Shown piece after piece: positions 2,330-64,000 of a stretch of DNA of 64,000 nucleotides (position 1 is its first letter; each line of letters starts with the position of its first letter). The stretch is taken from assembly GCA_029582155.1 (NCBI GenBank), contig CM055907.1, positions 10,763,874 to 10,827,873 on the forward strand. Direction: 5' to 3'. Position numbers and translations under genes: made by a program. This DNA comes from Panopea generosa (taxonomy: Eukaryota; Mollusca; Bivalvia; Adapedonta; Hiatellidae). The notes under the pieces are model-generated. The model saw only the letters and a list, made by a program, of their open reading frames with translations. It was not told the origin of the DNA and ran no database searches.

Positions 2330-2704
2330 AATATTTAGGCATGTTAAGATTATTAAAACATCAGCGTTTAAACCCTATCTTAACCATTTCAGGGTGACCC
2401 TGTTATGCTGGACATTTCAAGTATTTAGACATTTTAAGATAAATTATAATGTCTAAAATATCTGACTTTAAACTCAATGTCTTAACCATTTCAGGGTGAC
2501 CCTGTTTGGCTGGAATCAAGTATTTAGACATTTAAGATAAATTATAATGTCTAAAATATCTGACTTTAAACTCTGTGTCTTAACCATTTCAGGGTGACCC
2601 TGTTTGGCTTGAATCAAGTATTTAGGCATTTTAAGATAAATTATAATGTCTTAAATATCTGACTTTAAACTCTGTGTCTTAACCATTTCAGGGTGACCAT
2701 GTTT
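2330..2704 (+). repeat. Tandem duplication carrying the exon 2 acceptor (four copies)
   Basis: Units of about 98-102 bp each end in CTTAACCATTTCAG followed by GGTGAC. The acceptor AG/GG falls after 2392, 2494, 2592 and 2691. Only the last copy continues into the long frame. Each of the first three reads GGT GAC CCT GTT and soon meets an in-frame TAG. Confidence 0.93.
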
Positions 2705-2952
2705 GGCTGGAAGCAAAGCAGAAAGGAGAATTCATTGTCCCCATCGGTGCGGAGGTCCAGTTTTCTGAATCGGGGCGGATACGGGTGATTGATGACAATG
2801 GGAAGGAACATTGGATTGATGGAAATTCTCAAATCAAGCACATGAATGCAACTTCAAAGAAACATATAGAAGACATGATCTTGCTTGGTGATCTCAACGA
2901 GGCGGGAATATTGCGAAATCTTTACATGAGATATAAGGAGAACCAAATATAT
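2692..2952 (+). CDS. MYO7A: MYO7A exon 2: SH3-like N-terminal part of the motor
   Basis: Residues about 7-93, starting GDHVWLE and containing [13 protein letters not shown], the conserved early motor motif. The acceptor is tttcag/GGT and the donor TAT/gtaagt, both in phase 0. The acceptor and first codons are repeated three times just upstream (see the repeat at 2330-2704). A small transposon begins 7 nt into the following intron. Confidence 0.97.
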
Positions 2953-63008: not shown

Positions 63009-64000
63009 TGGAAATGTCTAAAAATAGAAATTCTAGATGGAAATGTCTGAAAATAGAACTTTTAGATGGAAATGCCTAAAGATAGAATTTTTAGATAGAA
63101 ATGTCTAAAAAATAGAACTATTGAACAATACTTATAGATGGACATATCTGAAATGTAAAAAGCACATTTATTGAAAGTTCAATAAAAACAGATAAATGTA
63201 GAAAAATATATACATAATACATATATATAAGTTGTTTCAAATAAATATAGCAACAGCTATAACTAGTTAGTTGCAACTAAGTGTAACAAACAATGTACAC
63301 AAATTTGTACTTGGGTTATTGTTTAGGTAAAAAGAATTTAAAAAAAAGACATTCATGATGAAAGTCAAATTGACTAAACACAAAACAAGCCTTTGTGTTA
63401 GTTGAAAACTGCCATAATATTGAGTCTAAATGGGCCATAAACCATTAACCAAAACTTGTAAACAATGAAAAATGTCCCGATAATAGGTATGTTCTCAAAT
63501 GTACATAGATGTAATATTGTTCAGAAACGCTATGGCAAATGTGATTCAGTTTACTTTAGTTTTGTAGCGTGCTGAAGGGATGTAGAAAATTAATTGTAAC
63601 CATGTATGTATCAACGCTGTTGGTGGTTGTACCGGACAGATGTGGCATACATGCAGGATCTAACACAAGTCCCTACTTAATACAAGGTTTATGAACCAAG
63701 TTAACTGTAGTTTAATTTAATCGGGTCTTTAATTTAAGCAAGCTTAACATAACAAGTTTCATAAAGCTTGTATTAAATGAGGATAAATTTAACATAATTT
63801 TTATCACATGTCATTGAAAGCTATTACAGTTATTGAACATGAAACCACATCGACATTAGACATAAGTTTGCATAAACATTTTATTATGATGTCGTGTCAC
63901 ACTGAAATAAAGGTGTGGTCATTCAGAAAAAGAAAATATGTGAGGGGTATTCATTCTCCGCAGCTACAAGGGAGGTAATACAATAAGGGAGATAATGCTA
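63009..64000 (+). other. MYO7A: 3' UTR and downstream sequence
   Basis: Directly after the stop come about four units of a 29-bp tandem repeat (63009-63125, start TGGAAATGTCTAAAAATAG). AATAAA signals occur at 63181 and 63905. Which is used cannot be decided from sequence. No further gene is visible to the window end. Confidence 0.6.

Follow-up and report, generated by a model that had tools for sequence, protein, structure and literature searches.

Do the tandem repeats which carry copies of splice sites in the MYO7A gene of Panopea generosa reflect duplication seeded at exon borders or merely the tolerance of arrays that arose there, and what becomes of the superfluous splice sites? The window (the whole stretch of 64,000 nucleotides analysed, part of contig 14 of a 39-contig, 1.47-Gb genome) is traversed by this gene, 39 exons of which were placed by spliced protein-to-DNA alignment; 1417 of 2122 aligned codons are identical to an approximate human MYO7A guide sequence. 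A molluscan source agrees with two muscle myosin exons from contig 2, whose best matches among solved structures are the chains 3i5f (squid) and 1dfk (scallop) and their kin (164 and 154 bits, versus 122 and 126 for human-type cardiac myosin). The numbering of exons 2–40 matches that of a preceding sequence-only reading. A false exon split at 32851/32903 was merged by hand, and the end of exon 28 was set by hand at 52590. Because no GT is present there, this end and the start of exon 29 are uncertain; no array lies close to either edge. A candidate for exon 1 at 278–295, offered by the spliced alignment, was rejected, and exon 1 has no confident location.

Tandem Repeats Finder (TRF) reported 70 rows for the window, which were merged into 26 arrays with periods of at least 7; under stricter merging, which counts 8434–8834 and 8829–9204 as two, 20 arrays measure 100 bp or more, and 19 of these belong to the gene. 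The MYO7A arrays and boundary copies described below lie on the plus strand. At exons 2, 9, 14 and 22 the splice junction is located inside the repeat unit itself, exactly as the sequence-only reading had stated. The acceptor of exon 2 (2692–2952) is crossed by a 99-bp array of 3.4 copies (2378–2716) with 25 exon bases per unit and three decoy acceptors upstream, in which AG is intact in 3/3. A 41-bp array of 5.2 copies (10557–10768) extends across the donor of exon 9 (10377–10587), contributing 31 exon bases per unit and four decoy donors with intact GT (4/4); its copies are 80–98% identical to one another. The acceptor of exon 14 (18520–18699) is covered by the end of a 51-bp array of 47 copies (16125–18527), with 8 exon bases per unit and 46 recognizable decoys, 40 of which have kept AG. 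At exon 22 (45532–45834) a 74-bp array of 2.8 copies (45352–45558), 85–95% identical to one another, crosses the acceptor and provides two decoys, both with intact AG and each with 42 exon-like bases as judged by eye (27 by TRF). These decoys encode a histidine like the human guide and the real exon a serine at this position, which hints that the copies may be older than the histidine/serine change. Altogether, the exonic share of the unit ranges from 8/51 to 31/41 bases.

The arrays previously noticed in the vicinity of exons 7, 16, 17, 21, 26, 36 and 40 were all recovered. Upstream of exon 7 (9209–9288) two adjoining arrays (8434–9204) are found, the second of which (8829–9204, 37-bp unit) ends 4 bp before the acceptor; its unit is similar to the pyrimidine tract of exon 7, and AG occurs in 0/19 of the copies found. 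A 59-bp array (20625–21149) starts 15 bp after the donor of exon 16 and includes the donor-adjoining intron sequence in its unit, the exon part not being convincingly copied; a further unit follows at ~21477–21535, past an inserted element. This dispersed element (21159–21471, ~310 bp) has a partial match at ~22669–22758 and, among the matches listed (40 of 10914 candidates scored), other copies of 94–96% identity on many contigs. Since it is flanked by array units on both sides, the array is older than the insertion. Further downstream, a 31-bp array (22120–22517) begins 17 bp after the donor of exon 17, and a 42-bp array of 263 copies (34183–45244) begins 23 bp after that of exon 21 and, with its 11 kb, fills nearly all of intron 21. 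A 54-bp array (50635–50978) ends 35 bp upstream of the acceptor of exon 26, a 28-bp array (59016–60293) starts 48 bp after the donor of exon 36, and a 27-bp array (62785–62892) ends 32 bp upstream of the acceptor of exon 40, the last one. Three arrays were absent from the earlier list: a 77-bp array in intron 14 (18757–19690), located 57 bp past the exon 14 donor and 76 bp short of exon 15 and thus a clear case of an array which fills a whole intron and so touches both edges; a 14/44-bp array (61630–61732) 6 bp after the donor of exon 38; and a 29-bp array (63008–63117) that begins on the final base of the stop codon. The degenerate boundary copies described for exons 11 and 32 could also be confirmed. 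For exon 11 (12930–13036), a degenerate acceptor copy with ~29 exon bases (12816–12864) is positioned 65 bp upstream of the exon, and two degenerate donor copies (56294–56495; ~56294–56345 by eye and 56439–56495 aligned) lie downstream of exon 32 (56131–56236), with GT kept in 0/2.

The crowding of array ends was evaluated on 78 MYO7A exon edges, with the stop codon counted as an edge, against a null in which all arrays are shrunk to one unit and randomly placed. Of the 19 arrays with 100 bp or more, 14 have an end no farther than 60 bp from an edge versus 4.51 expected (exact p 5.6e-6), which substantiates the earlier claim that arrays cluster at the exon edges of this gene. The corresponding values are 10/19 versus 3.11 within 25 bp (p 2.8e-4) and 5/19 versus 2.09 for overlap with an edge (p 0.049). 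Restricted to splice edges (without the 28/29 edges, the stop codon and the 3'UTR array), 13/18 arrays end within 60 bp versus 4.21 (p 1.5e-5) and 4/18 overlap an edge versus 1.97 (p 0.13). A laxer null, in which only the tested array is shrunk and the others keep their full length, yields 14/19 versus 3.00 and p 3e-8; the all-shrunk null was preferred, and its larger p value lowers the odds of an edge-directed birth of the arrays. In an earlier variant of the test the outcome was 14/18 versus 3.65, with a p of 5e-5 which is the floor of 20000 draws, and with exons from our own finder, trained without the window, it was 12/20 and 10/20 versus 2.74 and 2.52 under the laxer null. Array coverage had been expected to increase close to the edges of MYO7A but does not (0.077 of bases at 1–10 bp, 0.19 at 51–100 bp).

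For comparison, the same genome was sampled at 30 kinesin loci and in twenty 10-kb segments with myosin genes (51/81 myosin and 119/126 kinesin Pfam hits), which after merging of overlapping loci correspond to 44 units of 288135 bases; the control genes are thus all myosins and kinesins, and L-numbers denote the sampled loci. L025 was left out as a duplicate of L024; these two kinesin loci (C3:4500416 and C3:273089, respectively) have identical scores and opposite orientation on one contig and perhaps are haplotype duplicates or arose by inverted duplication. Pfam hits served for annotation together with a small gene finder based on codons and splice signals, which at a penalty of 8 predicted 180 exons and recovered 80/85 Pfam exons with 62/68 left and 55/66 right edges agreeing; trained without the MYO7A exons, it recovered 32/39 of them and called 8 exons in antisense orientation in the window. 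According to these figures perhaps one fifth of the finder exons are false and dilute the control. Two predicted exons consisting mostly of array were omitted, as were arrays that share over 60 bases with exons (72 arrays versus 73 in the test with Pfam hits alone).

A genome-wide tendency of duplications to start at exon borders, as had been suggested, is not supported by this sample. Within 60 bp of 365 edges 13/60 arrays were counted versus 9.05 expected (p 0.10), or 10.0 with all arrays shrunk (p 0.18), and a finder penalty of 10 gave 11/60 versus 8.16 (p 0.18). The values are 9/60 versus 4.9 (p 0.05; all shrunk 5.4, p 0.08) within 10 bp and 6/60 versus 4.05 (p 0.21; all shrunk 4.5, p 0.29) for edge overlap; with Pfam-hit exons alone 7/73 arrays lie within 60 bp versus 4.16 (p 0.12). 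Array coverage even drops towards the exons of these loci, from 0.11 at 401–700 bp to 0.02 at the edge. MYO7A differs from them both in the arrays within 60 bp of an edge (14/20 versus 13/60, Fisher p 2.0e-4) and in the edges with an array within this distance (14/78 versus 13/365, Fisher p 2.7e-5). The comparison of array-to-splice-site distances with random placement, which the sequence-only reading had proposed genome-wide, gives for the sampled loci an excess in MYO7A and none of significance within 60 bp in the 44 others. The crowding looks like a feature of MYO7A, which appears as an outlier within the loci sampled.

Copies of the junctions themselves were also searched independently of TRF by aligning 35 exon and 35 intron bases per edge to the adjacent 1 kb of intron sequence, the edges of other loci serving as mismatched control. 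At a score of at least 22, matches were obtained for 7/78 MYO7A edges (exons 2, 9, 11, 14, 16, 22 and 32; control 0.0). Exon 16 was rejected as a junction copy since its alignment matches mainly on intron sequence, which leaves six edges, the donors of exons 9 and 32 and the acceptors of exons 2, 11, 14 and 22. In the other loci 10/355 edges reached this score (control 0.4); rows of units could be read at five of these ten, in L006, L017, L016, L032 and L039. Among the remaining ones, the match in L015 resembles a duplicated alternative exon, that in L012 depends on a predicted exon, and those in L045 and L006 (4928) count by their alignment score. At a score of at least 18 the difference between MYO7A (8/78 edges) and the other loci (17/355) is not clear (p 0.10). 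With 30-base exon-only segments and a score of at least 13, matches were obtained in MYO7A for 7 edges and 0 exon interiors (control 0.4), and in the other loci for 10 edges and 3 exon interiors (control 3.1). As a rough rate over 433 edges, ~3% of the sampled exon edges possess a junction copy, and 8–9% of those in MYO7A. Junction-spanning arrays are thus a feature of this genome, at a rate about that of blind duplication. In the kinesin donor array of L039 (1–1519) the exon-derived half of the unit is more variable than the intron-derived half.

The rows of decoy splice sites are real, as had been claimed. In the other loci AG or GT is kept in 2/3 decoys of L006, 4/7 of L017, 3/4 of L016, 1/4 of L032 (GT) and 34/34 of L039 (GT). 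Among the exon 14 copies AG deviates in 0.087, compared with 0.101 for the rest of the unit, and the splice score of the decoys averages 2.8 versus 4.4 at the real site, 13/40 scoring within one unit of the latter; for exon 9 the mean is 5.9 versus 8.0. Following the reading frames from the decoys, a stop is met in 3/3 cases at exon 2 and in all 40 AG-bearing decoys of exon 14, a frame shift results in 2/2 cases at exon 22, and a frame shift or stop in 4/4 at exon 9, so that use of a decoy would shift the frame or meet a stop in every MYO7A case examined, in line with the original observation. From the sequence, the persistence of the decoys suggests that they may be seldom used or that their use may cost little. 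Those which are broken (exon 7, exon 32 and L032) or score low (exons 14 and 9) could reflect selection against decoys.

Taken together, we consider it most plausible, with a probability of about 0.7, that the MYO7A arrays are products of blind local tandem duplication and that their rows of splice sites are a "mirage" whose decoys are passed over or whose products are destroyed. In this minisatellite-rich genome, arrays would arise through local tandem duplication, and a founding duplication might happen to cover an exon edge; amplification would then lay copies of the splice site on the intron side, and the copy next to the exon, which alone is attached to the complete exon, would remain the working site. 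The arrays would be tolerated because this copy remains whole. As their use would result in frameshifts or stops, the decoys are presumably passed over, for example through exon definition, or their products destroyed. The structure of the arrays, the state of the decoy cores, the outcome for the frame and the recurrence in other genes are directly visible in the sequence, from which we infer that splicing skips the decoys. The varying exonic share of the unit fits blind duplication because free breakpoints would give it. Also in favour of this reading are the recurrence of junction copies in other genes, the many intact AG or GT cores, the similar deviation of AG and of the remaining unit at exon 14, and the likeness to the lancelet arrays treated below. 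Of the two options raised at the outset, tolerance fits better than seeding, given edge overlaps near the blind expectation both in MYO7A (4/18 versus 1.97) and elsewhere (6/60 versus 4.05–4.5), which upholds only one half of the alternative offered by the sequence-only reading. The surplus of edge arrays in MYO7A over the other sampled genes is not explained in this way, and the overall position of MYO7A above blind placement counts against blind duplication, as would the weak or broken decoys if they reflect selection.

Precisely this surplus would be expected if duplication were actively seeded at exon edges, e.g. through DNA damage linked to transcription or splicing or through splice-signal sequence, and frequently so in MYO7A. 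Such a process is favoured by the excess of MYO7A over the null and over the other genes and by the slight excess within 10 bp in the other loci; however, the latter offer no significant excess within 60 bp, their array coverage decreases towards exons, and MYO7A was picked for its striking look; after correction for ~20000 genes its p of 5.6e-6 would no longer be significant. We therefore regard active seeding as unlikely, and are equally doubtful that minisatellites arise preferentially at the exon edges of certain genes, with MYO7A having acquired arrays at ~1/6 of its edges through an undescribed edge-directed process. The decoy rows might instead be functional and divert some transcripts into stop-containing products, thereby tuning the output of the gene. 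Many decoys are intact, those at exons 2, 9, 14 and 22 would disrupt the frame, and the complete preservation of GT in L039 might be read in the same sense, but intactness equally fits recent amplification, several decoys are broken, and lancelet arrays of this type were reported not to disturb splicing (PMC3087553); a function of this kind appears improbable. An origin of the copies as assembly artefacts is very improbable. The copy numbers of long arrays can indeed be misassembled, the 263 units in intron 21 being an example, but the copies of exons 9 and 22 differ from one another, and the dispersed element inside the intron 16 array with a unit beyond it makes a simple duplication error unlikely.

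Judged by their sequence, the MYO7A junction arrays can be identified as "mirages", the boundary-spanning minisatellites known from lancelets. There, minisatellite-like tandem duplications cross intron-exon boundaries at donors and acceptors in the genes for Adh3, the globins BflGb6 and BflGb9, troponin C and PGBD5, keep AG or GT in many but not all copies, and have been suggested to give rise to new introns (PMC3087553, PMC3902484); RT-PCR suggested regular splicing (PMC3087553). Likewise, the MYO7A units span junctions of both types and often keep AG or GT. Unlike the lancelet cases, these arrays occur in a mollusc, several in one gene, with 46 decoys in one array and a rate over 433 edges, and they are known from the sequence of one assembly, whereas splicing of the former was followed by RT-PCR. 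A related process is intron gain in the potato RdRp gene by tandem duplication of splice-site-containing segments (PMC4974935), which shares with MYO7A the tandem duplication of splice-signal sequence beside coding sequence but differs in that the MYO7A copies have no demonstrated new intron between them. Variable tandem repeats in human segmental-duplication genes can activate cryptic splice sites, and are located within exons of recent paralogs (PMC2812944), in contrast to the copies in the conserved MYO7A gene, which lie to the intron side of the junctions. For an earthworm, intronic minisatellites and duplicated exons are reported, with no junction arrays in the passages considered (PMC12783039). 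Among the best literature matches, with most subscription journals outside the scope, no report of mirages in molluscs was found.

A structure named in lancelets is thereby carried into a mollusc. Where nearly identical splice sites stand in a row and a single one is correct, the choice made by the spliceosome is put to a natural test, and junction arrays could plausibly supply material for new introns and extended exons; introns from tandem arrays were reportedly treated by Zhuo and others in 2007.

Elsewhere in the genome, a fragment of a dynein heavy chain (profile positions ~220–313, often with 313–353 nearby) has ~30 matches among those listed, on contigs 9, 16, 20, 26 and others. Most copies contain an internal stop, and the sequence looks like a putative amplified gene fragment.
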